A stretch of 64,000 bases of DNA from an uncultured Flavobacteriaceae bacterium (lineage in GTDB: Bacteria; Bacteroidota; Bacteroidia; Flavobacteriales; Flavobacteriaceae): the NCBI GenBank assembly GCA_947504035.1, contig CANNGA010000002.1, positions 248,001 through 312,000 on the forward strand, given 5' to 3'. The position numbers and the translations under genes are program-made. How positions within the stretch are numbered: the stretch's first letter is position 1; every line of letters begins with the position of its first letter. The notes beneath the pieces are model-generated. The model worked only from the letters and a program-made list of their open reading frames with translations. It had not been told where the DNA came from and searched no databases. Below, piece by piece: positions 13,891-41,280 of this stretch.

Positions 13891-16494
13891 ATGAGATTTA
13901 ATGCCACCATTTTAAAACAAGTTGCTGTCCTATTTTTTATATGTGGATTTTTCCATGTAGATCCTCTACAAGCGCAAGGAGATGTTCCTCCCAATGTGTT
14001 GTGTATTGTTGCAGATGATTTAGGAATTGATGCCTTATTCTCTTCAGATTATGGCATTACATTAGCAAGCCAACCCAATACGCCTAATATTGAAGCTTTA
14101 AAAGCTAATGGCGTATCATTTTTAAATACCTGGGCAACACCACAGTGTGCTACAACTCGTGCTGCTATGATAAGTGGTACCTATGGTATAAACACAGGGG
14201 TGAGGCGCGTGCCTGGAAACTTAGATTTGGTACACGAATCTATTTTCACGTATTTAGACAATGCCAACACAAATTATGCTAAGGCTGTTGTAGGGAAGTG
14301 GCATATTTCTAATCCACAAGATGCCAACCATCCAGGCGCACATGGTGTTGATTTTTTTGAAGGTATTTTAGGGGGCTTTGTAGACGATTATTACAGTTGG
14401 CAGAAGATTGATGGTAACGGTCAAACTACAGATGTAGATGAATATATTACAGCACATTTTACAGACACTGCAATAAACTGGATAGACAATCAAAGTAGCC
14501 CTTGGTTTTTGTGGCTAGCGCATACAGCGCCACATAGTCCGTTCCATACCCCACCATCAGGAACTTTTTCGCAAACGAACTTGAGTTCTAATAGAAATCA
14601 ATATATGGCAGCTATAGAGTCTTTAGATTACTATATAGGTACACTTATAGGTAGTATGGACCAAGCTACATTAGACAATACGATCATTGTTTTTATAGGT
14701 GATAATGGTACGCCAGGAGGTGTATCTCGTTTTTTTCCTGGCGATCATGCTAAAGGCTCTATGTACGAAGGTGGTTTACGTGTACCACTTATCATCTCAG
14801 GAAAAGGAGTAACGCGTCAAGGTGTATTAGAAAATGGCATTGCCCAAGCTACAGATGTTTATGCTACACTTGTAGAACTCATGTCTAACGACTTAGAAGG
14901 AGGTATACATAACAGTTATAGTTTGGCGCCTGCATTAACTACAGCAAATGCCATAGAACGCCCTTATATTTATACGGACTATATTGATGATGGATTGGAG
15001 TTTTGGGCTGTTCGCGATAACACGTATAAACTTATAGAAAATGAGAATGGTGTCGTAGAGTTTTACAATGTCGTTACCGATTTAGAAGAAGCGCAGAACC
15101 TCGTGGGGTTTTTAACAAATGAAGAAGCTAGTATTTTGGGGCAAATGCAAGCAGAGGCAGCAACCATACGTACCGATTGGTCATGCCAAGATTTAATTTT
15201 AAATGGCACAGAAACGATAACAGATGATTGCAGTTCATGTCCTGTAGATCAATTGAATTTTACCAATATAGGATGCTGTGAAACTCCTAATGTCCCTAAT
15301 GTTTATTATGAATATTTTGAAGGGGACTCTAGAAAAATATATTCAAACAATTTTCCTAATCATGATTATTGCTACAATAATAACATACCGACACAGAGTT
15401 ACCATGATTTAGAAATGGATGTCAATCCCGTGGTTACAAATACAATAACCAGTGTAATTAATCCACGTACAGGACGTCCAGCGACAACTTTTGGGGTGGC
15501 CCTAAATGGTGTGTTGTTTGCGCCAGGACCAGCCTTACCTTTTGTGTATTCTAATCCTGAGACTGGAGAGTTTAATTGGGATTGGGTTTTTGAACCTACA
15601 AATAATCAGGGTGCTGGTCAAGATTTAGTAAGTCTAGATTGTGCTTCTGCTCATACCAATAATGCTCACGGCTACCATTACCATGGTGAAATGTTTTCGT
15701 ATTTAGAGCATGAAATTCCGGGTGTGACTACAGCTACAACCGTAGATGCTATTATACCAATAGGCTGGGCTGCCGATGGATTCCCTATTTTATATAAGTT
15801 TGGTCCAGATACTAGTGGAGGACTAAAAATTTTGCAACCGAGTTACCGGTTAAAAGCTGGTGATCGCCCAGGAGATGGTACCGATGTACCCTGTGGACCA
15901 CATACGGGACGCTATACCAACGATTACGAGTACATTGAAAACCTAGGTGATTTAGATGCGTGTAATGGTATGAATGCATCAATTACTGTAGAAACAGCTA
16001 ATGGACCGCAAACTTTCGAATATTTTTATGTTATTTCATCTACCTTTCCTCAAGTGCCTCGTTGTTTTGTGGGTAACGTTAATAGCTCTTTTACAAATGA
16101 CCAAATCACAGGAACAGATGGTGATGGTGATGGTTTTATTGCTGCTTTTGATTGTGATGATGGCGATCCTACTGTTAATCCTTTAGCAACAGAAGTGCCA
16201 GGCAATGAAATAGATGAAAATTGTGATGGACAAGATACGCTTAGTTTAGACGATTTTGAAGGTAGCTTGGTGACCATTTTGCCTAACCCAACACAAGGAA
16301 AAGTAAGGCTTATCAATAATTTTGGATTTAATTATAAGGCCTATGTTTATGATATACAGGGAAAACTCTTATTAGAAATCGCTAATAGTCCAGAGTTTTT
16401 AAGTTTAGAAGCGTTTAAAAGTGGTATTTATATGCTAAAAGTAGAAGATACAAGATCTAATACAACGGGTATTTATAAAATTATAAAACGCTAA
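13891..16494 (+). CDS. Secreted sulfatase-YHYH-MopE fusion with T9SS sorting domain
   Basis: An 867-residue secreted multidomain protein. Residues 1-29 are a signal peptide (ending LQAQ). Residues 33-430 are a sulfatase: NVLCIVADD (metal Asp pair), the active-site segment CATTRAAMISG (C86 as formylglycine precursor), GKWH, AHTAPHSP and GDNGT. Residues about 470-745 form a YHYH domain (NAHGYHYHGE, GWAADGFPI, DLDACNGM). Residues 748-785 have the MopE-type metal-binding repeat (DGDGDGF...DCDDGDPTVNP...DENCDG). The final 75 residues are a T9SS type A sorting domain (ILPNPTQGKV...GIYMLKV...KIIKR). The position-3 Thr in CATTR departs from the usual C-x-P/A-x-R signature, so sulfatase maturation is uncertain. 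Confidence 0.88.
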   Translation: MRFNATILKQVAVLFFICGFFHVDPLQAQGDVPPNVLCIVADDLGIDALFSSDYGITLASQPNTPNIEALKANGVSFLNTWATPQCATTRAAMISGTYGINTGVRRVPGNLDLVHESIFTYLDNANTNYAKAVVGKWHISNPQDANHPGAHGVDFFEGILGGFVDDYYSWQKIDGNGQTTDVDEYITAHFTDTAINWIDNQSSPWFLWLAHTAPHSPFHTPPSGTFSQTNLSSNRNQYMAAIESLDYYIGTLIGSMDQATLDNTIIVFIGDNGTPGGVSRFFPGDHAKGSMYEGGLRVPLIISGKGVTRQGVLENGIAQATDVYATLVELMSNDLEGGIHNSYSLAPALTTANAIERPYIYTDYIDDGLEFWAVRDNTYKLIENENGVVEFYNVVTDLEEAQNLVGFLTNEEASILGQMQAEAATIRTDWSCQDLILNGTETITDDCSSCPVDQLNFTNIGCCETPNVPNVYYEYFEGDSRKIYSNNFPNHDYCYNNNIPTQSYHDLEMDVNPVVTNTITSVINPRTGRPATTFGVALNGVLFAPGPALPFVYSNPETGEFNWDWVFEPTNNQGAGQDLVSLDCASAHTNNAHGYHYHGEMFSYLEHEIPGVTTATTVDAIIPIGWAADGFPILYKFGPDTSGGLKILQPSYRLKAGDRPGDGTDVPCGPHTGRYTNDYEYIENLGDLDACNGMNASITVETANGPQTFEYFYVISSTFPQVPRCFVGNVNSSFTNDQITGTDGDGDGFIAAFDCDDGDPTVNPLATEVPGNEIDENCDGQDTLSLDDFEGSLVTILPNPTQGKVRLINNFGFNYKAYVYDIQGKLLLEIANSPEFLSLEAFKSGIYMLKVEDTRSNTTGIYKIIKR

Positions 16495-16540
16495 TAACTA
16501 AAAAAGCTATAGTCTGTTTAGACTACCAAAATATCACGAT

Positions 16541-16592
16541 AATACTATAGCCTTATCCGTTATTTGAAAACAGATAAGGCTAGTATTTTTTA
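16541..16592. terminator. Long bidirectional hairpin terminator
   Basis: AATACTATAGCCTTATCCGTT (16541-16561) pairs with AACAGATAAGGCTAGTATT (16569-16587) apart from a two-base bulge and one mismatch, followed by TTTTTTAA. It closes the sulfatase gene and is the left-most copy of a hairpin reused in the tandem array that follows. Confidence 0.75.
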
Positions 16593-16611
16593 ATACGCAA
16601 AACATTACAGG

Positions 16612-16833
16612 CTATTGTAGGTTACCTGCAAGTTGCTTGCGCGCATCATGCATGTACGACCAAAATTGCTTTTCATCTATTTTTAAGACTTTGCAAATGG
16701 CTTTGGTACTGTAATTATGAATCGTTTTAAGAATAAAAACTTCGCGTTGCATTTTGGGGATTGCTTTTAGAGTTTCGAGTACTAAAATTTGATTCATCTC
16801 GGCGCTGGCATTTCGGTTTAGTGCGACATTCAT
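16612..16833 (-). CDS. Mini-sigma4 protein, copy 1
   Basis: A 73-residue protein made almost entirely of a sigma-70 region-4-like fold: AIPKMQREVFILKTI (first helices, residues 24-38) then the helix-turn-helix STKAICKVLKIDEKQFWSYMHDAR (42-65). The pattern fits ECF sigma factors of the kind ending in a Trp-containing recognition helix followed by L-H-x-A-R. Region 2, needed for -10 recognition and core binding, is absent. It could act as a split-sigma subunit, a DNA-binding adaptor or a decoy. Its initiator ATG lies 31 bp downstream of TAAGTTTG (reverse complement of 16864-16871). Confidence 0.82.
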   Translation of the reverse strand: MNVALNRNASAEMNQILVLETLKAIPKMQREVFILKTIHNYSTKAICKVLKIDEKQFWSYMHDARKQLAGNLQ

Positions 16834-16918
16834 AAGGTAATTTTTTAGTTATTTTATGTCCTACAAACTTAAGTTTTGTTTAACCTTTAAAACATGTATG
16901 TTTTGCCCTAAAAAGTAT

Positions 16919-16944
16919 GATTTCAAGAAATTACACAAAGTTAT
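16919..16944 (-). promoter_or_regulatory. Palindromic motif upstream of mini-sigma4 copy 1
   Basis: GATTTCAAGAAAT followed by TACACAAAGTTAT. The dyad lies 86 bp upstream of the start codon, about 50 bp upstream of the -7-like box, a position typical of activator sites. The same motif and distance recur at every copy. Confidence 0.65.
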
Positions 16945-17055
16945 GTCGTCTTTTATAGTGTTTGTTTTATGTGTTGTGTGATTATCGTTTTTGAAATAAA
17001 TGATTAGTGTATGTGTTCAGATAATCAAAACGTTACCGCTTTAGTTAGTAAGCGA

Positions 17056-17193
17056 TTTTGTGATATGGAGAAGCGCTCTATTTAAAGTGGCTGGGAGTGA
17101 AAAATTAGTTTTATGAGAGGGGAGATCACAGCGTGGTTTGTGGTAGGGTTTAGTCAGGAAACGTTAAACAAAAAAGGTGTTTTTTAGAGCAAA
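17056..17193 (+). pseudogene. PAS-AraC gene remnant in spacer 1
   Basis: Three collinear matches to the gene at 20353: TTTTGTGATATG (start region, 17056-17067), GGAAACGTTAAACAAAAAAG (17157-17176) and TTTTTAGAGCAAA (17181-17193). The frame closes after six codons. Large internal deletions separate the matches. Confidence 0.6.
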
Positions 17194-17285
17194 TACGATT
17201 TAAGAAGGGAGACCATACTGTAACCTTACCTGTTACTTAAAAACAGATAAGGCTAGTATTTTTTTAATACGCAAAGCATTACAGG

Positions 17286-17507
17286 CTATTGTAGGTTACC
17301 TGCAAGTTGCTTGCGTGCATCATGCATGTACGACCAAAATTGCTTTTCATCTATTTTTAAGACTTTGCAAATGGCTTTGGTACTGTAATTATGAATCGTT
17401 TTAAGAATAAAAACTTCGCGTTGCAATTTTGGAATTGCTTTTAGAGTTTCGAGTATTAAAATTTGATTCATCTCGGCGCTGGCATTTCGGTTTAGTGCGA
17501 CATTCAT
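17286..17507 (-). CDS. Mini-sigma4 protein, copy 2
   Basis: 73 residues, differing from copy 1 only at two conservative positions (V18I, M28L). The helix-turn-helix is identical. Near identity of both protein and flanks marks the copy 1-2 duplication as the most recent, or as homogenised by gene conversion. Confidence 0.82.
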   Translation of the reverse strand: MNVALNRNASAEMNQILILETLKAIPKLQREVFILKTIHNYSTKAICKVLKIDEKQFWSYMHDARKQLAGNLQ

Positions 17508-17592
17508 AAGGTAATTTTTTAGTTATTTTATGTCCTACAAACTTAAGTTTTGTTTAATCTTTTAAACATGTATGTTTTGCCCTAAAAAGTAT

Positions 17593-17618
17593 GATTTCAA
17601 GAAATTACACAAAGTTAT
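17593..17618 (-). promoter_or_regulatory. Palindromic motif upstream of mini-sigma4 copy 2
   Basis: GATTTCAAGAAAT plus TACACAAAGTTAT, identical to the copy-1 site, again 86 bp upstream of the start codon. Confidence 0.65.
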
Positions 17619-17730
17619 GTAGTCTTTTATAGCATTTGTTTTATGTGTTGTTTGATTGCCGTTTTTGAAATAAATGATTAGGGTGTGTATTCAGATAATC
17701 AAAAAGTTACCGCTTCAGCTTGTAAACAAT

Positions 17731-17867
17731 TTTGTGAGATGGAGAAGCACTCTGTTTAAAGTGGATGGAGTAAAAAATTAGTTTTTATGAGAGTGGAGAT
17801 TACAGCGTGGTTTGTGGTAGGGTTTAGTCAGGAAACGTTAAACAAAAAAGGTGTTTTTTAGAGCAAA
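17731..17867 (+). pseudogene. PAS-AraC gene remnant in spacer 2
   Basis: TTTGTGAGATG (start-region match), GGAAACGTTAAACAAAAAAG at 17831-17850 and TTTTTAGAGCAAA ending at 17867, in the order found in the intact gene. The reading frame is destroyed, as in spacer 1. Confidence 0.6.
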
Positions 17868-17957
17868 TACGATTTAAGAAGGGAGACCATACTGTAACCT
17901 TACCTGTTACTTAAGAACAGATAAGGCTAGTATTGGTTAGTACACAAAATCTACTGG

Positions 17958-18179
17958 TTAGTGTAGATGTCCTGCAAGTTGTTTGCGCGCATCGTGCATG
18001 TACGACCAAAATTGCTTCTCATCTATTTTTAAGACTTTGCAAATGGCTTTGGTACTGTAATTATGAATCGTTTTAAGAATAAAAACTTCACGTTGCAATT
18101 TTGGAATTGCTTTTAAAGTTTCGAATACTAAAATTTGATTCATCTCGGTGCTAGCATTTTGGTTTAGTGTAACATTCAT
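17958..18179 (-). CDS. Mini-sigma4 protein, copy 3
   Basis: 73 residues. It differs from copies 1-2 mainly in the N-terminal tail (A4T, R7Q, A11T, L19F) and the last residues (AGHLH), while residues 28-69 with the whole helix-turn-helix are unchanged. Variation confined to the tail and extreme C-terminus suggests purifying selection on the DNA-binding part. Confidence 0.82.
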   Translation of the reverse strand: MNVTLNQNASTEMNQILVFETLKAIPKLQREVFILKTIHNYSTKAICKVLKIDEKQFWSYMHDARKQLAGHLH

Positions 18180-18264
18180 AAGGTAATGGTTTAGTTAAAC
18201 TATTCTCTACAAATTTAAGTTTTGTTTAACTTATAACACCTACAAATAGTGCTCTAAAAAGTAT

Positions 18265-18290
18265 GATTTCATGAAATCGAACAAAGTTAT
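18265..18290 (-). promoter_or_regulatory. Palindromic motif upstream of mini-sigma4 copy 3
   Basis: Perfect 14-bp palindrome GATTTCATGAAATC followed by GAACAAAGTTAT, 86 bp upstream of the start. This subgroup has the perfect form of the dyad. Confidence 0.7.
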
Positions 18291-18385
18291 ATTGCTTCTT
18301 ATTGTGCTTGTTTTGTTTGGTATATCATTAAAATTTAAAAATAGAGAATACAGCGTTAATGTATAGTTTTTTAAAGGGTTAGACT

Positions 18386-18541
18386 ATGATTGATAAACCG
18401 TTTTTTTATAATATTAAGAGCTTGCGTATTAGGAGTGCTAAAGCGTAAAAAATAAACGTTATTACAAGAGGGGATACGGCGTATTTTGTAGGAGCGCTAA
18501 TTAAGGTAACGTTAAACAAAAAAGGTGTTTTTTAGAGCAAA
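18386..18541 (+). pseudogene. PAS-AraC gene remnant in spacer 3
   Basis: Starts ATGATTGATA (intact gene: ATGATAGATA), giving M-I-D, then keeps GTAGGAGCGCTAATTAAGG and TAACGTTAAACAAAAAAG (18488-18524) at the register of the intact gene, and TTTTTAGAGCAAA. A TAA closes the frame after 20 codons. Best-preserved remnant. Confidence 0.7.
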
Positions 18542-18631
18542 TACGATTTAAGAGGGGAGACCATACTGTAACCTTACCTGTTACTTAAGAACAGATAAGG
18601 CTAGTATTGGTTAGTACACAAAATCTATTGG

Positions 18632-18853
18632 TTAGTATAGATGTCCTGCAAGTTGTTTGCGCGCATCGTGCATGTACGACCAAAATTGCTTCTCGTCTAT
18701 TTTTAAGACTTTGCAAATGGCTTTGGTACTGTAATTATGAATCGTTTTAAGAATAAAAACTTCACGTTGCAATTTTGGAATTGCTTTTAAAGTTTCGAAT
18801 ACTAAAATTTGATTCATCTCGGTGCTAGCATTTTGGTTTAGTGTAACATTCAT
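18632..18853 (-). CDS. Mini-sigma4 protein, copy 4
   Basis: 73 residues, identical to copy 3 except for the final residue (Tyr instead of His). Its promoter region is also nearly identical to that of copy 3. Confidence 0.82.
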   Translation of the reverse strand: MNVTLNQNASTEMNQILVFETLKAIPKLQREVFILKTIHNYSTKAICKVLKIDEKQFWSYMHDARKQLAGHLY

Positions 18854-18938
18854 AAGGTAATGGTTTAGTTATACTATTCTCTACAAATTTAAGTTTTGTT
18901 TAACTTATAGTACCTATAAATAGTGCTCTAAAAAGTAT

Positions 18939-18964
18939 GATTTCATGAAATCGAACAAAGTTAT
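18939..18964 (-). promoter_or_regulatory. Palindromic motif upstream of mini-sigma4 copy 4
   Basis: GATTTCATGAAATC plus GAACAAAGTTAT, 86 bp upstream of the start codon. Confidence 0.7.
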
Positions 18965-19059
18965 GACGCTTCTTATCGTGCTTGTTTCGTTTGGTGTATC
19001 ATTAAAATTTTAAAATAGAGAATACAGCGTTAATGTACAGGTGTTAAAAGGATTAAATT

Positions 19060-19212
19060 ATGATTAGTAAACCGTTTTTGTAATATTAACAGCTTGTGTG
19101 TTAAGAGTGCTAAAGTGTAAAAAATAAACATCGTTACAAGAGGGAATACAACATATTCTGTAGAGACGCTAATTAAGGTAACGTTAAACAAAAAAGGTGT
19201 TTTTAGAGCAAA
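19060..19212 (+). pseudogene. PAS-AraC gene remnant in spacer 4
   Basis: ATGATTAGTA start-like sequence, then CTGTAGAGACGCTAATTAAGG and TAACGTTAAACAAAAAAG (to 19196), then TTTTAGAGCAAA. Same order and spacing as in spacer 3; not translatable. Confidence 0.65.
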
Positions 19213-19302
19213 TACGATTTAAGAGGGGAAACCATACTGTAATCTTACCTGTTACTTAAGAACAGATAAGGCTAGTATTGGTTAGTACACAAAATCTATT
19301 GG

Positions 19303-19524
19303 TTAGTATAGATGTCCTGCAAGTTGTTTGCGCGCATCGTGCATGTACGACCAAAATTGCTTCTCGTCTATTTTTAAGACTTTGCAAATGGCTTTGGTAC
19401 TGTAATTATGAATCGTTTTAAGAATAAAAACTTCGCGTTGCAATTTTGGAATTGCTTTTAAAGTTTCAAGTACTAAAAGTTGATTCATTTCAGCGCTAGC
19501 ATTTTGGTTTAGTGTAACATTCAT
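19303..19524 (-). CDS. Mini-sigma4 protein, copy 5
   Basis: 73 residues. It combines the copy 3-4 style N-terminus (MNVTLNQNAS) with A11 and L19 as in copies 1-2, plus a private I16L change. The DNA-binding half is again unchanged. The mosaic pattern hints at recombination between units. Confidence 0.82.
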   Translation of the reverse strand: MNVTLNQNASAEMNQLLVLETLKAIPKLQREVFILKTIHNYSTKAICKVLKIDEKQFWSYMHDARKQLAGHLY

Positions 19525-19609
19525 AAGGGAATGGTTTAGTTATACTATTCTCTACAAACTTAAGTTTTGTTTAACTTATAGCACCTACAAATAGCACTCT
19601 AAAAAGTAT

Positions 19610-19635
19610 GATTTCATGAAATCGAACAAAGTTAT
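19610..19635 (-). promoter_or_regulatory. Palindromic motif upstream of mini-sigma4 copy 5
   Basis: GATTTCATGAAATC plus GAACAAAGTTAT, 86 bp upstream of the start codon. Confidence 0.7.
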
Positions 19636-19730
19636 GACGCTTCTTATCGTGCTTGTTTCGTTTGGTGTATCATTAAAGTTTCAAAACAGAGAATATAGTT
19701 TTAATGTGCATATAATCATAGGGTTAATCT

Positions 19731-19870
19731 ATGATTGATAAACCGTTTTTTATAATATTAAGAGCTTGCGTATTAGGAGTACTAAAGCGTAAAAAATAAA
19801 CGTTATTACAAGAGGGAAATACAGCGTATTCTATAGGAGTGCTAATTAAGGCAACGTTAAACAAAATACA
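19731..19870 (+). pseudogene. PAS-AraC gene remnant in spacer 5
   Basis: ATGATTGATA at 19731 and TAGGAGTGCTAATTAAGG with CAACGTTAAACAAAA (to about 19867). The third match block (TTTTTAGAGC) and the hairpin are missing here, so this spacer lost more of its 3' part. Confidence 0.6.
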
Positions 19871-19984
19871 TTTTTAAAATCACTATTGTTTTTAATATAT
19901 GTTATATCGTAACTATAGTGTTATAAGACGACTGCTTTAGAAAACATAAAAAAAACAAGAGGTAAATAACTGAAAAATAGCGCG

Positions 19985-20206
19985 TTAATGTAGGGTATTG
20001 GCTAGTTGTTGGCGCGCATCATGCATATACGTCCAAAATTGTGTGTCATCTATTTTTAAAACTTTGCAAATGGTTTTGGTGCTGTAATTATGAATCGTTC
20101 TAAGTACAAAAACCTCGCGTTGTAATTTGGGGATTGTTTTTAAAGTTTCAAGTACTAAGTTCTGGTTCGTCTCGGGGCTAGTGTTTTGATTTCGTGTGAC
20201 ATTCAT
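19985..20206 (-). CDS. Mini-sigma4 protein, copy 6 (divergent from PAS-AraC gene)
   Basis: 73 residues, clearly diverged from copies 1-5 (for example T44 for A, DDTQFWTYMHDARQQLANTLH at the end) but with the same fold and length. It forms a divergent pair with the intact PAS-AraC gene starting 147 bp away, which I take as the ancestral arrangement of the array. The palindrome between them could serve both genes. Confidence 0.82.
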   Translation of the reverse strand: MNVTRNQNTSPETNQNLVLETLKTIPKLQREVFVLRTIHNYSTKTICKVLKIDDTQFWTYMHDARQQLANTLH

Positions 20207-20293
20207 AAGGCCGTTAGTTTCGTTATACAGCGTTTTTACAAACTTAAGTTTTGTTTAACCTTTGGAGGGTAAACATTCCACTTAAAAAGGTAT

Positions 20294-20319
20294 GATTTCA
20301 AGAAATCGGACAAACTTAT
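20294..20319. promoter_or_regulatory. Palindromic motif in the mini-sigma4 copy 6 / PAS-AraC divergent region
   Basis: GATTTCAAGAAATC followed by GGACAAACTTAT, 88 bp upstream of mini-sigma4 copy 6 and 59 bp upstream of the PAS-AraC ATG. Being shared, it is the natural candidate for autoregulation by the PAS-AraC protein. Confidence 0.65.
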
Positions 20320-20352
20320 ACAACCTTTCAATTAATTCATTAAATTTGTGAT

Positions 20353-21096
20353 ATGATAGATACTATTAAAGCCGACATTTCGGTTGTAATCACAGATAGT
20401 CAAAGGATTATCATTTGGGTGAATGAACAGTTTAGCAAGATGACAGGCTATTCATTAGAAGAAGTTAGAGGGAAAAAACCTGCCTTATTACAGGGGAAAA
20501 ATACAGAACGACCTGCAGTTGCGAGAATTAAGGAAGCGTTAAACAAAAAAGTGCATTTTCATGATCGTATTACGAATTATCGTAAAAATGGTGAAGAGTA
20601 TACGTGCGCATTAACAATACATCCTATTTTCGATTTAGATGGAAGTTTATCAAATTTTGTAGCTTTTGAGGTTGATAACAATTTTGTAAACCCAGATAAA
20701 GAGCCTTTAATGCGTCTTTCGCAAGCTCAAAAGAAAACGTACTTAACAGATACTGAAGAATTGACGATGTATTTTAAGCTTTTAGATCTTTTTAGAGCAA
20801 AAAAATTATATTTAGATGCCAATCTTAGTCAGCAAAAGGTTGCCGATTTAATGGAGACTAATGTTAAATACTTGTCCTTGGTGATTAATAACCAGACTGA
20901 AAAAAACTTTAAATACTTTGTAAATCAATTTAGAGTACAGGCCTTTGAAAACTTATTGTCTTCTAAGGCCATGCCTAATTACACGCTTTTCAGTATTGGT
21001 GAACAGTGTGGTTTTAAAAATAAATCTACGTTTTACAGTGTGATTTTAACCCATACTGGTAAAACGCCAAAAGAAATTGCTGCGACGTATTATTAA
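20353..21096 (+). CDS. PAS domain + AraC-type HTH transcriptional regulator
   Basis: A 247-residue cytoplasmic regulator. Residues 5-110 form a PAS domain (VVITDSQRIIIWVNEQFSKMTGYSLEEVRG...YRKNGEEY...HPIFDLDGSLSNFVAFEVD). Its GKKPALLQGKNTE segment aligns with the LOV signature GxNCRFLQG, but the flavin-reactive Cys is replaced by Pro, so it is a LOV-like domain without photochemistry. Residues 130-247 hold a two-helix-turn-helix AraC domain (LSQQKVADLMETNVKYLSLVIN and FSIGEQCGFKNKSTFYSVILTHTGKTPKE). It is flanked on both sides by mini-sigma4 genes and is the only intact one of its kind here. Confidence 0.87.
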   Translation: MIDTIKADISVVITDSQRIIIWVNEQFSKMTGYSLEEVRGKKPALLQGKNTERPAVARIKEALNKKVHFHDRITNYRKNGEEYTCALTIHPIFDLDGSLSNFVAFEVDNNFVNPDKEPLMRLSQAQKKTYLTDTEELTMYFKLLDLFRAKKLYLDANLSQQKVADLMETNVKYLSLVINNQTEKNFKYFVNQFRVQAFENLLSSKAMPNYTLFSIGEQCGFKNKSTFYSVILTHTGKTPKEIAATYY

Positions 21097-21133
21097 CGCA
21101 TTCTTTTTTAGAACCCTTTCTTAACACGAAGAC

Positions 21134-21355
21134 TTAATGTCCAAATAAATGTTGGCGTGCATGGTACATGCATGCCCAAAATAATTTTTCATTAATTTTT
21201 AAGATTGTACAAATATCTTTTGTACTCTTATTGTAAATGGTTTTAAGTATAAATACTTCACGTTGCAGTCTAGGAATGGTTTTTAAAGTTTCTAGTAAGA
21301 CACTTTTTTTCATTTCAATATTTGTTGTGTCGCTTAAAGTACTAGTACTAGGCAT
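21134..21355 (-). CDS. Mini-sigma4 protein, copy 7 (diverged, outside the array)
   Basis: 73 residues, the most distant family member: the N-terminal tail is unrelated (MPSTSTLSDTTNIEMKKS) but TLKTIPRLQREVFILKTIYNKSTKDICTILKINEKLFWACMYHAR keeps every core position of region 4. It converges with the PAS-AraC gene (37 bp between stops) and retains the upstream palindrome, so it is an older duplicate under the same control. Confidence 0.75.
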   Translation of the reverse strand: MPSTSTLSDTTNIEMKKSVLLETLKTIPRLQREVFILKTIYNKSTKDICTILKINEKLFWACMYHARQHLFGH

Positions 21356-21442
21356 AAGAAAATTATTTAAGGGATATTAACTGACACAAAACTACTTTTA
21401 CTTATTCTTATAACAGTAAGATTTTTTTCCCAAATAAGTACA

Positions 21443-21463
21443 GTTTCATGAAATCGGACAAAT
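21443..21463 (-). promoter_or_regulatory. Palindromic motif upstream of mini-sigma4 copy 7
   Basis: GTTTCATGAAATCGGACAAA, 88 bp upstream of the start codon. Everything else in this upstream region has diverged from the array, so survival of the motif at the same distance points to function. Confidence 0.7.
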
Positions 21464-21976
21464 TCGCGTCATGTTGCATAGACATTTCTAGGGTATAATT
21501 ACGCCATAGTTTACAGAGTAATTCGCTTAAAATAAGATGGATGTAACTAAATGGTGTGTGTTCTAAATATGCTTCTTCAAGCATACAAATACCTGTACTA
21601 TAAAGTCTAAATGAGGTTAAAAAGTAGGTTTTAGAATATTTTATACCATTTAAGAGACTGCTACATGGTGTTTTTCTCAAATACTGTTCTGTTTTTAAGC
21701 TTTTATACCTCAAAATAACGCTTTCATACCCTTAAAACCTGAATTGCTGTCTCTTTTTTATTTAACAAGAAAAAGAACATGTATTTTTAGCATAATAAAC
21801 ATTGTATAGCAGTCTATTTCATACACTAACATTTATTGAAGCTATCCTAATAGCGATTAAAATGCTAGTATGTGCTATTTATAACATTATAGATGACGTG
21901 TTATAGTCTGTTAAAACGTATAGAAACTAACCAAAAATGCCGAAACAAATAAGTAGGCGCGTATAAAAGCAAAAAA
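21464..21976. other. Gene-free spacer before tyrosinase gene
   Basis: About 510 bp without a convincing gene. A 101-codon minus-strand frame crosses part of it but overlaps the conserved palindrome and resembles nothing known. It must hold the tyrosinase promoter. Confidence 0.45.
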
Positions 21977-23467
21977 ATGGGAACACAACAAGCAGTAGCG
22001 GTACCAACTTGGTATGATGATATAAGATATTTATTTACAGCGGGCGACATCGCATGTATGAAAAATCATGGCTATGACCTCAGTGATTATAGTACTGTAA
22101 AAAATGGTTCAGGAAGTATATATGGACAAGTTTCTGGTGGAATGATGCCAAAAGGAGGGCCTGCATGGTCTGCAGAAAAAGTAACTACGTTTTACAATTG
22201 GATGAACACGGGGTATACTAAAGGCCCTAGAGCGACAACGTCTAAACGTTTAAAAACATTTGCAGAAACGGCACCTACAGCAACACGTATACGAAAAGAA
22301 GTCACAACACTTAGTCCAAAAGAGGTTAAAACACTTCAAAAGGCATTTGCGGGTATTATGGCTAAACCCATAGACGATCCCGATAGCTTTTATGCACTAG
22401 CAGGGTGGCATGGTTTCCCTAAACCTAATTGTATGCATCATACCCCTGGTTATAATCCTTGGCATCGTATATACATGTGGCGTTTTGAAAATGCATTGCG
22501 TACTATAGAAGGTTGTAGTGATGTGGTATTACCGTATTGGGATTTTAGCCAAGAAGAATTACCCGCTGTTTTTGATACGGCTCCTCTTAATGCATATACG
22601 CTTCCAGTAGACACCACGTATAATGGTACAACGTATAAGAAGGGAATGACTACCGAACGGTATTCAGCGAAAACCATAGCTTCAAAAATGGAAGGCTATG
22701 ATACTATTGGTTGTTTTGATAGGGCTTCTAAAGAAACCGATTGGGAAGATTACCACGGTTTATTGGGCGGCACAACTAATGATACTACGTTTCATGGACA
22801 TGATACAGGACACTTATCTATTGGTCCTACAATGGCAAATCAAGATATTTCAGCTTTCGATCCTATTTTTTGGTTCTATCATTGTAACCTAGACCGCTTG
22901 TATTGGGAGTGGCAAAAGACGATGAAAGCAACAACATCTACTTCTATTTTAACAACCATACAAACACAGGCCAGTCGTAATATTTTTACAGTTCCAGCTT
23001 ATGAAGAATTGCCACCTTTTGATAAGAATTCACCTTTTTCTGTAGATTCTGAAAACAACTTAGATGTGGCTTACACAAGTACTTCTCAATCCGTTAAAAC
23101 TATGAGGCTTAAAACTAAAGGCACATCTTCTGCTAAAGAAAAGTTTACTGTACATACAGAAATGGTAAATGTGCGTGTAAAAGGAGTCAATCGGTTAAAA
23201 ATACCAGGGAGTTTCGATATACATCTTCAAAAAGACGGGGTTACGATAGCTACTCGCGGATTTTTTCAGCCCAATGATGTTGAAAAGTGCGCAAACTGTG
23301 TAGAAAATGCTATTGTACATTTTGATTTTAAATTACCTGTAGAAGCCATAGCTCATGGAACATTGAGTATTTCTGTAGTGCCACTAAGCACGCCAGAAAC
23401 AGACTTTCCACTTAGCAAGCTAGGACACCCTACAATAAATGTACGTTTATTATTAAGCAACCATTAA
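21977..23467 (+). CDS. Tyrosinase-family copper oxidase
   Basis: A 496-residue type-3 copper protein; such enzymes hydroxylate or oxidise phenols to quinones. CuA ligands: H145 (GWHG), H154/H155 (CMHHTP) and H163 (PWHR). CuB ligands: H275 and H279 (HGHDTGH) and H302 in DPIFWFYHCNLDRLYWEW. PYWDFS between the sites is also typical. An extra N-terminal region (1-105) has a DIRYLFTAGDIACM segment and a W-x5-TTFYNW block of unknown role. The C-terminal 150 residues are beta-rich, as in plant and bacterial long tyrosinases. No signal peptide is visible, although its neighbour is a lipoprotein. First gene of a four-gene plus-strand group. Confidence 0.88.
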   Translation: MGTQQAVAVPTWYDDIRYLFTAGDIACMKNHGYDLSDYSTVKNGSGSIYGQVSGGMMPKGGPAWSAEKVTTFYNWMNTGYTKGPRATTSKRLKTFAETAPTATRIRKEVTTLSPKEVKTLQKAFAGIMAKPIDDPDSFYALAGWHGFPKPNCMHHTPGYNPWHRIYMWRFENALRTIEGCSDVVLPYWDFSQEELPAVFDTAPLNAYTLPVDTTYNGTTYKKGMTTERYSAKTIASKMEGYDTIGCFDRASKETDWEDYHGLLGGTTNDTTFHGHDTGHLSIGPTMANQDISAFDPIFWFYHCNLDRLYWEWQKTMKATTSTSILTTIQTQASRNIFTVPAYEELPPFDKNSPFSVDSENNLDVAYTSTSQSVKTMRLKTKGTSSAKEKFTVHTEMVNVRVKGVNRLKIPGSFDIHLQKDGVTIATRGFFQPNDVEKCANCVENAIVHFDFKLPVEAIAHGTLSISVVPLSTPETDFPLSKLGHPTINVRLLLSNH

Positions 23468-23525
23468 ATCTAATTTTAATCCGAATTATGCGATAGAACA
23501 TTGTCGTGAAGCTTTGAGATACCAT

Positions 23526-23601
23526 AAATACTGACTTTTTCTTGATTTTAGCATAGCATCGCTATGGTTAAATTGAAAAAAGTAGTGTAGCGCCAGTATT
23601 T
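23526..23601. repeat. Long imperfect inverted repeat between tyrosinase and lipoprotein genes
   Basis: AAATACTGAC (23526-23535) pairs with GCCAGTATTT (23592-23601) with one mismatch, and inside it CTTTTTCTTGATTT...GCATAGC pairs imperfectly with GCTATG...AAATTGAAAAAAG around an ATC loop at 23558-23560. The arms total about 35 bp each. It lacks a terminal T-run, so it may be an mRNA-stability or attenuation hairpin rather than a terminator. Confidence 0.55.
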
Positions 23602-23669
23602 GCAGTAGCTTAAAAGTGTAATAGATGTGCTATCACATAAAGCGGGTTTAACGTATTAAACTATACTTT

Positions 23670-25271
23670 ATGAGATTAATTACACCTTGTTTTCGCATGG
23701 GAAACGCATTAAAAATTATTGTATTAAGTAGCGTTCTGCTCACGTTGTCTTGCGATAAAAAACAGCATTATGTGGCGCTTAAAGCTCCTGCTGTATTTTC
23801 ACCAAATATACCTGTAGATGTAGATCCTGCTTTGCAAAATACATTGAAAGCTGCCGGAGCTATTTACCAATTGAATACCGCTTATAATATTTACAGTTGG
23901 CAAGCACTTATTGCCATTAACTGGCCATTAGACAGTAGTGGTGTGGCCCTTAAAAATTTCACAGATAAAGGCACACCTACTTGGTTAACATGGAAGGAGG
24001 CTTTTCAAGTGTACCGTGCCGATGGTAAAGTACCTGCCGCATGGGATAGCCCAAGAACCGCTAATGGTTTGGGATTAAAAGCTGCTGTACTGAATGATCA
24101 TGATTCCAGAATTATATTAAGCGACAAAACACCAACACATACAGGACATTCTAATATTGCTGACGAAACCGATCAGGCTTTTGCAGGAAAGTTGTTTGAT
24201 CAAAATGGAGAAGTTGTGGTGTATGAAGTATTGATGAATAAGGAAGAGTTCGACTATATCGTGGAGCAGAAGCTGTATAATATAAATGGGCAATTAGAGT
24301 TTGCTAAAACGCATACCGAAGCAAATTTCCCAAAAGGGGATTATACAAAAGGAACGCTTGGTGCTACAGAAATTAAACTGGCGTGGCGGATTTTAAAGGA
24401 TAATACACCGCACCAAGACCGTTATCTTGTAGATGAAGGTTACATTATTGATGAAAAGACGAAAACACCTAAAAAAGTACGTTTAGGTTTAATAGGATTT
24501 CATATCAGTCAAAAAACACCAACAGGAAAGCAATGGGTTTGGTCTACGTTTGAGCATATCGATAATTTAGATCAAAATGTTATTGAAAAGGACGGAAAAA
24601 CCACAGTAATTCATCCTACGCTTACTAATCCTGATTGTGAGATATGTCCTGTAAATGTAGATGTAAGCAATAATGCTAATACTTATGCATTTCATAAAAC
24701 AAAACATGCCGACTATTGGAAAGTTACTGGCGATGCTCTAAAGTATTATACAGATGATACTTTAATGAAAACCCAAGCCAAGCGTATGGTGGATATTCCA
24801 GTGCGCGTAAAACGTGTCAATACTATGATGCAAAACTATTTTAAACAAGAAGGTAGTGTATGGCAGTATTACCAATTAATCGATACGCAGTATCCTTTAA
24901 ATCAAGATGCCGCACCGAGTATAAGCACACCCACAGCATATCATATCCCTGGAAGTGTGGTTAATAAGCCTGGAGGTGATCCTAATTTAGCATTTTTAAC
25001 CAATATCACTATGGAAACCTTTTTCCAAAAGGGCAACCAAATTGCAGGCCTTATGGAAAATTCGAATTCCGATATTACAATTTTTGGAACAGAAAGCTGT
25101 ATAGGGTGCCATTCCAGTGCGTTTATGTATAATTCTTATACCTTAAAGAAAGGAAAAGAGAAAGCAACTTTAGGCGCTGGCAGCCAATTGTCTGGAGACT
25201 TTAGTTGGTTATTGAAGAAAGCGACTTGGGATAAAGATTTACCGAAGCCAGCACCAACCGCAACGCATTAA
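23670..25271 (+). CDS. Lipoprotein with a CxxCH haem-binding motif
   Basis: A 533-residue exported protein. The lipobox LLTLSC puts the lipidated Cys at residue 28; an internal ATG at codon 10 (MGNALKIIVLSS) may be the true start. The body has conserved-looking Trp/Pro-rich segments (YNIYSWQALIAINWP, TPTWLTWKEAFQVYR) and near residue 475 a single c-type haem motif CIGCHS. A C-P-V pair (CEICPV) lies near 330. It follows the tyrosinase and may take electrons from, or supply copper or electrons to, the oxidase; this is inferred from position only. I do not recognise a named family. Confidence 0.75.
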   Translation: MRLITPCFRMGNALKIIVLSSVLLTLSCDKKQHYVALKAPAVFSPNIPVDVDPALQNTLKAAGAIYQLNTAYNIYSWQALIAINWPLDSSGVALKNFTDKGTPTWLTWKEAFQVYRADGKVPAAWDSPRTANGLGLKAAVLNDHDSRIILSDKTPTHTGHSNIADETDQAFAGKLFDQNGEVVVYEVLMNKEEFDYIVEQKLYNINGQLEFAKTHTEANFPKGDYTKGTLGATEIKLAWRILKDNTPHQDRYLVDEGYIIDEKTKTPKKVRLGLIGFHISQKTPTGKQWVWSTFEHIDNLDQNVIEKDGKTTVIHPTLTNPDCEICPVNVDVSNNANTYAFHKTKHADYWKVTGDALKYYTDDTLMKTQAKRMVDIPVRVKRVNTMMQNYFKQEGSVWQYYQLIDTQYPLNQDAAPSISTPTAYHIPGSVVNKPGGDPNLAFLTNITMETFFQKGNQIAGLMENSNSDITIFGTESCIGCHSSAFMYNSYTLKKGKEKATLGAGSQLSGDFSWLLKKATWDKDLPKPAPTATH

Positions 25272-40764: not shown

Positions 40765-41280
40765 ATGTCTAAAAAAACAATTGGGGTTTGTGATGAGAAC
40801 ATATATGATGCCTTATACCGTGAGCATGCCGAAAAAATATGTTACTACCTGTATTATAAATATGGCGATATGGAAAAAGCGCAGGATATTGTACAAGATA
40901 GCTTTGCTAAACTTTGGGTAGACTGTGCTAAGATTTTTTTAGGAGCTGCAAAAAGTTTTCTCTATAAGATTGCCAATAATGCGTCTATTAATAGTCTTGT
41001 GCATCAAAAAACCATATTAAAATATAAGCAAATTCCTCAAAAACGCTACACTAACGAGTCGCCAGAGTTCCAAATGGAAGAAAAAGAATTCTTGCAGCGT
41101 TTAAATGCGGCCATTTCAGGTTTAAAAGATGGACAGCGCGAAGTGTTTTTGTTGAACAGAATTGAAAAAAAGACCTATAAAGAGATTGCAGAATTGTTGG
41201 ATATTTCTGTGAAATCGGTTGAGAAACGCATGCGCTTGGCCTTATTGTTTTTAAGAAAAAAAATAAATACACCACTATAG
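40765..41280 (+). CDS. ECF RNA polymerase sigma factor (FecI-like)
   Basis: 171 residues with region 2 (YDALYREHAEKICYYLYYKYGDMEKAQDIVQDSFAKLW) and region 4 (ISGLKDGQREVFLLNRIEKKTYKEIAELLDISVKSVEKRMRLALLFLR). It belongs to the Bacteroidota FecI-type group that pairs with FecR and a TonB receptor. Unlike the mini-sigma4 proteins at 16.6-21.4 kb it has both domains. Three bases separate its stop from the mini-FecR start, so the whole cassette is likely one operon. Confidence 0.9.
   Translation: MSKKTIGVCDENIYDALYREHAEKICYYLYYKYGDMEKAQDIVQDSFAKLWVDCAKIFLGAAKSFLYKIANNASINSLVHQKTILKYKQIPQKRYTNESPEFQMEEKEFLQRLNAAISGLKDGQREVFLLNRIEKKTYKEIAELLDISVKSVEKRMRLALLFLRKKINTPL

Follow-up and report, generated by a model that had tools for sequence, protein, structure and literature searches.

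A stretch of 64,000 nucleotides from an uncultured Flavobacteriaceae bacterium (assembly GCA_947504035.1, contig CANNGA010000002.1, positions 248,001 to 312,000 of the forward strand), referred to here as the window, contains a conserved two-gene regulatory module whose small half has undergone a genuine and unusual amplification. The small half encodes a stand-alone sigma region 4 protein of 73 amino acids, named sR4, which is present in seven copies (c1 to c7); the other half encodes a PAS-AraC sensor-regulator that stands divergent from c6. The pair, its operator, the fixed spacing between the operator and the -7 box, the restriction of the operator to the module in the window's genome and the amplified segment were established directly. 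We interpret the locus as an amplified two-gene switch in which PAS-AraC would control the sR4 promoters and the copies would have been kept for the dosage of sR4, and assign this interpretation a probability of roughly 45%. An initial annotation of the same DNA had described the tandem genes; beyond it, PAS-AraC is the divergent and conserved partner of c6, each copy has an operator shared with the pair, and relics of the sensor gene make up the spacers.

The seven open reading frames (ORFs) were confirmed as intact genes of 73 codons each, all on the minus strand. Six form a direct array with a period of about 672 bp: c1 (16612-16833), c2 (17286-17507, 97% identical to c1), c3 (17958-18179, also placed by alignment), c4 (18632-18853), c5 (19303-19524) and c6 (19985-20206). 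The diverged c7, an older copy, is found at 21134-21355. From start to start, the repeated blocks are 674, 672, 674, 671 and 682 bp apart, followed by a step of 1143 bp. Residues 29-70 are identical in c1 to c5, matching the essentially invariant DNA-binding half described in the initial annotation; apart from the N-terminal part, residues 28, 71 and 73 vary too. The coding DNA of c1 to c6 diverges by 1-19%, most spacer pairs by much more, and the array sits within a 398-kb contig. The tandem amplification is thus real, and an assembly artefact or stutter is disfavoured by the divergence among the copies.

The divergent PAS-AraC/sR4 pair was found in six genomes, namely that of the window (G000), two uncultured Aquimarina (loci L036 and L037), a Polaribacter metagenome-assembled genome (L038), G281 and G008, the last being a congener of the window's organism (locus L056, 7992-9359). 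A search of genome contigs with the sR4 alignment confirmed L036, L037 and L038 among 133 candidate stretches, and a family-level search added G281. These four carry a single sR4 divergent from PAS-AraC, with 71-82% identity to the window's, and c6 occupies the place of their single gene. In G008, PAS-AraC is 64% identical to that of the window and sR4 has 110 amino acids with an extended N-terminal part (39% identity to c5). Copy number in the five relatives' genomes was surveyed with a profile of 12 sR4 proteins, which at E <= 1e-5 gave 12 matches: five pair-type sR4 (one per genome), six in frames of 184-203 amino acids and one in G763, the genome of L037. This last one (G763:C22:34338-34511) is a second sR4-like match in a 61-amino-acid frame with one stop, possibly a broken extracytoplasmic function (ECF) sigma factor gene. 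Since the five relatives keep one sR4 back-to-back with the sensor, only the small partner appears to have been multiplied; extra copies in relatives could be missed, as G281 is 76% complete and no completeness is stated for the genomes of L036-L038.

At E <= 1e-14, sR4 occurs in 2 of 397 family genomes, the window's genome counted, a threshold that would miss an sR4 as diverged as that of G008 (3.3e-11). PAS-AraC at E <= 1e-40 occurs in 2 of 397 genomes of the family, 1 of 395 of the order and 1 of 395 of the phylum, the window's genome counted each time; these samples overlap and each was drawn from a larger group. Within the window's genus, 5 of 12 genomes match at E <= 1e-20, full-length only in G000 and G008 and with the PAS part only in the others; in the genus of G281, PAS-AraC is present in one of two genomes. 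The sR4 and PAS-AraC trees give the same grouping of the five relatives (one group of the two Aquimarina loci, another of G281, Polaribacter and G008), which weakly suggests that the pair is co-inherited. Despite the common genus, the pair of G008 is nearer to that of Polaribacter than to the window's, a faint sign that it has perhaps been exchanged between genera; both trees contain few taxa, several of their nodes are weakly supported, and that of sR4 leaves c6 and c7 unresolved from the relatives.

The operator is a 22-bp inverted repeat, GTATGATTTC-NN-GAAATCATAC, extended from a palindrome in the alignment of the upstream regions. It is present in all six pair intergenic regions with 0-5 mismatches of 20: none in L038 and G008, two at c6, three in G281, and four and five in the Aquimarina loci. 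In the window it was located by pattern search, with two mismatches each, at 20290-20311 in the divergent pair (c6) and upstream of c5 (19606-19627), c4 (18935-18956), c3 (18261-18282), c2 (17589-17610) and c1 (16915-16936); a diverged version with five mismatches lies upstream of c7 (21438-21459). At up to three mismatches, the whole of the window's genome contains six operator places, one upstream of each of c1 to c6, compared to one per strand for a reversed-pattern control. The core GATTTCWTGAAATC at up to one mismatch occurs at nine distinct places, six in the array and three elsewhere; the latter look like chance, because the control gives five rows.

The putative sR4 promoters are marked by a 20-bp block, TTAAACAAAACTTAAGTTTG, with the -7 box TAAGTTTG. 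Pattern search on the minus strand placed it at 16864-16883 for c1 and at 17538, 18210, 18884, 19555 and 20239 for the further copies; at up to three mismatches, these six at c1 to c6 are the only ones in the window, with 0.94 expected. Flavobacterial promoters usually have a TTG at -33. Here, a TTG ending 15-24 bp before the -7 box was found in none of c1 to c7 (0/7) and not in G281. In c1 to c7, G281 and G008, a TAnnTTTG box follows the operator centre at a distance of 53-54 bp. In G008 both elements are about 40 bp further from the gene, yet their mutual spacing is retained. According to PMC9723704, TAnnTTTG is the flavobacterial sigma-A -7 box, covering -12 to -5, and the operator centre would therefore lie at about -66 from the expected sR4 transcript start. 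E. coli-type promoter predictions were not used, since 10 were found compared to 20 in shuffles.

Five spacers of c1 to c6 match the start and upstream region of PAS-AraC with 61-65% identity over 344-370 bp (E 5e-23 to 1e-31), and upstream of c7 the operator region alone matches (76 bp, E 2e-4). To exclude composition and the common operator, the spacer parts beyond the operator were compared with the sensor coding sequence alone. The relics scored 44-57 bits compared to shuffled maxima of 27-31, and in each of the five spacers 0 of 300 shuffles reached the real score. One decayed piece of the 5' PAS-AraC coding sequence lies on the plus strand at 17018-17202, and further such relics at approximately 17677-17876, 18428-18550, 19010-19221 and 19683-19881; their reading frames are broken. 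Ahead of the PAS-AraC start at c6 stands the box TAAATTTG, which was not found in c1 to c5. The similarity stops at about base 227 of 744 in PAS-AraC, so the duplicated segment comprised sR4, the operator and about one third of the sensor gene from its 5' end. A small RNA in the spacers was considered and rejected: no Rfam match up to E 1 was obtained in 15500-22500, and descent from PAS-AraC accounts for the spacers.

In older copy pairs the relics share 54-65% identity, the lower value being near the level of unrelated AT-rich DNA in such an alignment, compared to 81-92% for the coding DNA; in younger pairs (c1-c2 and within c3-c5) the values are 79-89% and 96-99%. The ratio of nonsynonymous to synonymous substitution rates (dN/dS, Nei-Gojobori) amounts to 0.10-0.24 in all 15 pairs of c1 to c6 and is thus not near 1, with small counts for the youngest pairs and near saturation for pairs with c7. 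The array copies c1 to c6 are under purifying selection while the sensor pieces have decayed. Synonymous divergence ranges from 0.02 for c3-c4 (0.024) to 0.93 for c4-c6, so the array expanded in successive rounds during a long period. The initial annotation had proposed a gene-dosage or phase-like system. Dosage is plausible, but phase variation finds no favouring signs in a locus whose copies diverged over such a time, recombinases not having been searched for.

The assignment of sR4 to sigma region 4, made at first by inspection of the letters, stands. The four copies scanned with Pfam all match Sigma70_r4_2 (PF08281), with E 4.8e-9 for c1, 4.6e-10 for c5, 5.5e-9 for c6 and 1.4e-7 for c7 and scores of 31.5-39.4 bits compared to a curated cut-off of 25.7; no second family exceeded its cut-off in these copies. 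NCBIfam gave partial, sub-cut-off matches of c5, c6 and c7 to the C-terminal ends of sigma factors (among the best 25 matches each). An AlphaFold model of c5, calculated from an alignment of eight sequences, consists of four helices with a predicted local distance difference test (pLDDT) value of 86.3. When it was compared with the PDB by Foldseek, the top 12 matches were ECF sigma factors or region 4 domains thereof (best E 3.3e-3; none with E <= 0.001), including the E. coli sigma-E region 4 on -35 DNA. A sequence-profile search of the PDB returned a response-regulator helix-turn-helix (HTH) as the sole match up to E 0.01 (E 0.005). We conclude that sR4 belongs to the ECF-type sigma region 4 family, fold included. 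Neither Pfam nor NCBIfam matched a region 2 inside its 73 amino acids, as a complete sigma factor would have.

The partner gene (20353-21096, plus strand) encodes 247 amino acids with a LOV-like PAS domain (PAS_9, E 2e-16) and an AraC domain (HTH_18, E 9.1e-9), whose 35.9 bits exceed the cut-off of 33.6 and place it in the AraC family. Its PAS domain is closest to LOV-type domains, with the blue-light photoreceptor 6gay at E 1.3e-17 (best 60 of 143 matches) and a partial match to the YtvA model (E 1.9e-21, 76.7 bits compared to a cut-off of 250). In GxNCRFLQ, the LOV motif carrying the photoactive cysteine, placed here by alignment with LOV structures, the cysteine is replaced by proline in five of the six PAS-AraC proteins and by alanine in the sixth, so that the photoreceptor cysteine is missing from all of them. 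Further flavin-contact positions appear altered by eye, which makes flavin binding by the sensor doubtful. Natural cysteine-less LOV proteins with proline exist, one of which binds flavin and changes shape on reduction, as stated in PMC4682037. Light sensing by the PAS domain is a sequence-based hint and is not claimed here. The structure model of PAS-AraC (pLDDT 50.3) was too poor for use.

Taken as an amplified switch, the locus may have worked and evolved as follows. The ancestral module would have been a divergent pair of a LOV-like PAS-AraC one-component sensor and the 73-amino-acid sR4 with one common inverted-repeat operator. PAS-AraC would bind this operator, whose centre lies some 66 bp ahead of where sR4 transcription is expected to begin, and activate the sR4 promoters, which in the window have no TTG at the usual place; the operator position upstream of the sR4 promoter favours such an activator. 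With the relics decayed and the sR4 genes preserved, a single sensor is left opposite six or seven sR4 genes and would drive their promoters in parallel. Selection may have retained the extra copies since more sR4 protein was useful. The product itself would be a small accessory protein that binds DNA or RNA polymerase rather than a sigma factor, a role favoured by the finding that all region-2 matches lie in sigma-factor-sized frames.

A number of observations weigh against this interpretation. The amplification is present in one genome only, the operator target search covered the window's genome alone, and the neighbours of the pair vary by genus, with no conserved adjacent target gene. On the sR4 strand, the two Aquimarina loci and the Polaribacter locus lack an exact TAnnTTTG where one would be expected; by eye, the Aquimarina loci have the near-match TAnnTTTA 52-53 bp away and the Polaribacter locus has no near-match. 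Moreover, a second TAnnTTTG at -110/-112 in c1 to c6 overlaps the operator edge, and together these loci and this box mean that the promoter assignment may be wrong. The absence of TTG is not universal either, as G008 has one 19 bp before its -7 box. Finally, a 22-bp palindrome with short half-sites is more typical of a small HTH dimer than of AraC proteins, and the short symmetric half-sites favour such a dimer.

That dimer might be sR4 itself, which would then bind the operator as an autoregulator and also control PAS-AraC, each array copy bringing its own site. We consider this unlikely, although it accounts for several features. The operator arms are symmetric at 7-10 of 10 positions over 12 sites, and the two head-to-head TGAAATC half-sites presumably resemble -35 elements read by ECF region 4, the domain that supplies the closest folds of sR4, one of them on -35 DNA. 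Each sR4 copy, the diverged c7 included, retains a version of the operator, and no place outside the array was found for it in the window's genome at the threshold given above. Dimerisation of sR4 is putative, however, and the operator occupies the place expected for an activator of the sR4 promoter. The recognition helix of ordinary ECF region 4 carries basic residues. The putative helix of sR4, FW-(S/T/A/N)-(Y/C)-(M/I)-(H/Y), has F57 and W58 invariant in 12 of 12 sR4 proteins and is without the basic residues seen in an ECF sigma factor of the window (40765-41280), a comparison made by eye, as the BLASTP alignment ends before the helix.

A sigma mimic is less probable still. Here, sR4 would, in the manner of the sigma-like PhyR domain, titrate an anti-sigma factor, or else compete for the polymerase flap, and its dosage would matter because the action is stoichiometric; a dosage amplification fits such a titrant. 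Three of the four scanned copies match the PhyR-type family PF22233 weakly (E 0.0035-0.015, 15.5-17.5 bits compared to a cut-off of 27), c5, c6 and c7 match PRK09191 (PhyR-type) at E 1.4e-6 to 0.0016, and the best Foldseek match of the c5 model is a region 4 in complex with an anti-sigma factor. All PhyR matches remain under the curated cut-offs, however, and Pfam matched no receiver domain in sR4, as a PhyR-type mimic would have. No anti-sigma family was matched in nine of the nearest genes scanned in the five relatives (L036, L037, L038, G281 and G008) or in the 101-amino-acid ORF upstream of c7, and none was recognised by eye in the ORF lists. The invariant F57 and W58 suggest a recognition helix in use.

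It is very improbable that sR4 gives its region 4 to a separate region-2 protein, the half-sigma role for which the initial annotation had named the SigO/RsoA pair as precedent. Family and fold of sR4 are those of a sigma region 4, and split sigma factors exist: according to PMC8103513, SigO carries region 4 and RsoA region 2, and a table in PMC10141391 assigns the two regions the opposite way. A search with PF04542, which a too diverged partner would escape, gave 17 region-2 matches for G000 and 15 for G008. The frames that hold these 32 matches measure 167-287 amino acids and are, judged by length, as large as complete sigma factors; since no short region-2 frame was found in either genome, a split sigma factor of this type is unsupported. 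The neighbour scan just described contained no sigma region 2 either. Least credible is a neutral tandem duplication retained by chance and gene conversion, without dosage benefit; tandem duplications arise often and the array is known from a single genome, but all six copies are open and under constraint while the attached sensor relics decayed, and the operator and promoter block were also kept.

Other origins and roles were rejected. For a mobile or phage origin, no relative of either protein was confirmed in viral contigs (0 of 99 and 0 of 28 candidate stretches), where the exact operator was not found either, and sR4 was not found in phage or plasmid records. Plasmid records matching PAS-AraC numbered 79; no match reached 80% coverage of the protein, and the 20 listed concern its N-terminal part with a coverage of at most 63%. 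In PHROGs, c5 and c6 matched phage sigma factors weakly (best E 1.6e-5), and c7 had no match. As to a defence role, PADLOC matched neither c5 nor PAS-AraC.

Some features of the surroundings may be added. An inverted repeat 3' of the c1 stop codon (16542-16588; repeat family D7, five copies; hairpin by eye) is likely a terminator; it was not among the predictions of a terminator scan. D7-type repeats with T-rich ends also follow c2 to c5 and were not found 3' of c6, whose downstream sequence differs. Next to the array, 13891-16494 (plus strand) encodes one chain with sulfatase, YHYH, MopE-type metal-binding and type IX secretion system sorting domains (Pfam), and 21977-25271 (plus strand) holds a tyrosinase gene followed by one for a 533-amino-acid protein for which neither Pfam (above cut-off) nor NCBIfam (up to E 0.1) gave a match. 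In the Aquimarina loci (L036 9204-10268, L037 8441-9505), a peroxiredoxin gene (by Pfam in L037, by likeness in L036) and, by eye, a thioredoxin-like gene adjoin the pair; a redox link is a hint only, because such genes do not adjoin the pair in the window, G281 and G008.

To our knowledge, little has been written about sigma region 4 proteins that occur free-standing. Among the matches listed for split sigma factors, stand-alone region 4, LOV-AraC in Bacteroidetes and tandem regulator arrays, the module is undescribed in titles and abstract openings, a body of literature that leaves subscription papers mostly outside. We tentatively propose, with somewhat less than even confidence, that the module is a new two-protein switch made of a cysteine-less LOV-like AraC sensor and a region-2-free sR4, the latter reading paired -35-like half-sites as a dimer or serving as a polymerase accessory, in which repeated tandem duplication raised the dose of sR4 alone and left the sensor single. 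With a conserved sensor partner and an operator confined to the module in its genome (<= 3 mismatches), the locus is a small, testable system and, with one sensor and six or seven outputs, an in-built dosage experiment. It could show whether a bare region 4 regulates transcription as a DNA- or polymerase-binding accessory.

Compared to known systems, sR4 resembles SigO/RsoA (YvrI/YvrHa) of Bacillus subtilis in that region 4 functions apart from region 2, but the locus has tandem copies and a PAS-AraC partner, and no short region-2 frame was found in G000 and G008. Halobacterial BAT (PMC4682037) combines a cysteine-less LOV-like domain with proline and a DNA-binding domain as the sensor does, the latter having an AraC domain instead of the BAT architecture. 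With the region 4 of ECF sigma factors (PF08281), sR4 shares sequence family and predicted fold; in contrast to them it has no region 2, carries the invariant FW in its putative helix and has no anti-sigma gene in the neighbours scanned. The sigma-like domain of PhyR is similar in the idea of a sigma mimic and in the weak profile match, whereas sR4 corresponds to the region 4 part only, matches no receiver domain and scores below the cut-offs. Small proteins of the UPF0122/YlxM type have a region-4-like fold as well (1xsv, UPF0122, match 49), but the structural match is weak (E 0.27) and their gene context is presumably another one. An arrangement in the style of araC-araBAD likewise has a divergent AraC-type regulator and target gene with an intergenic operator in common; here, in contrast, the target is a small sigma-like regulator that was amplified without its regulator.

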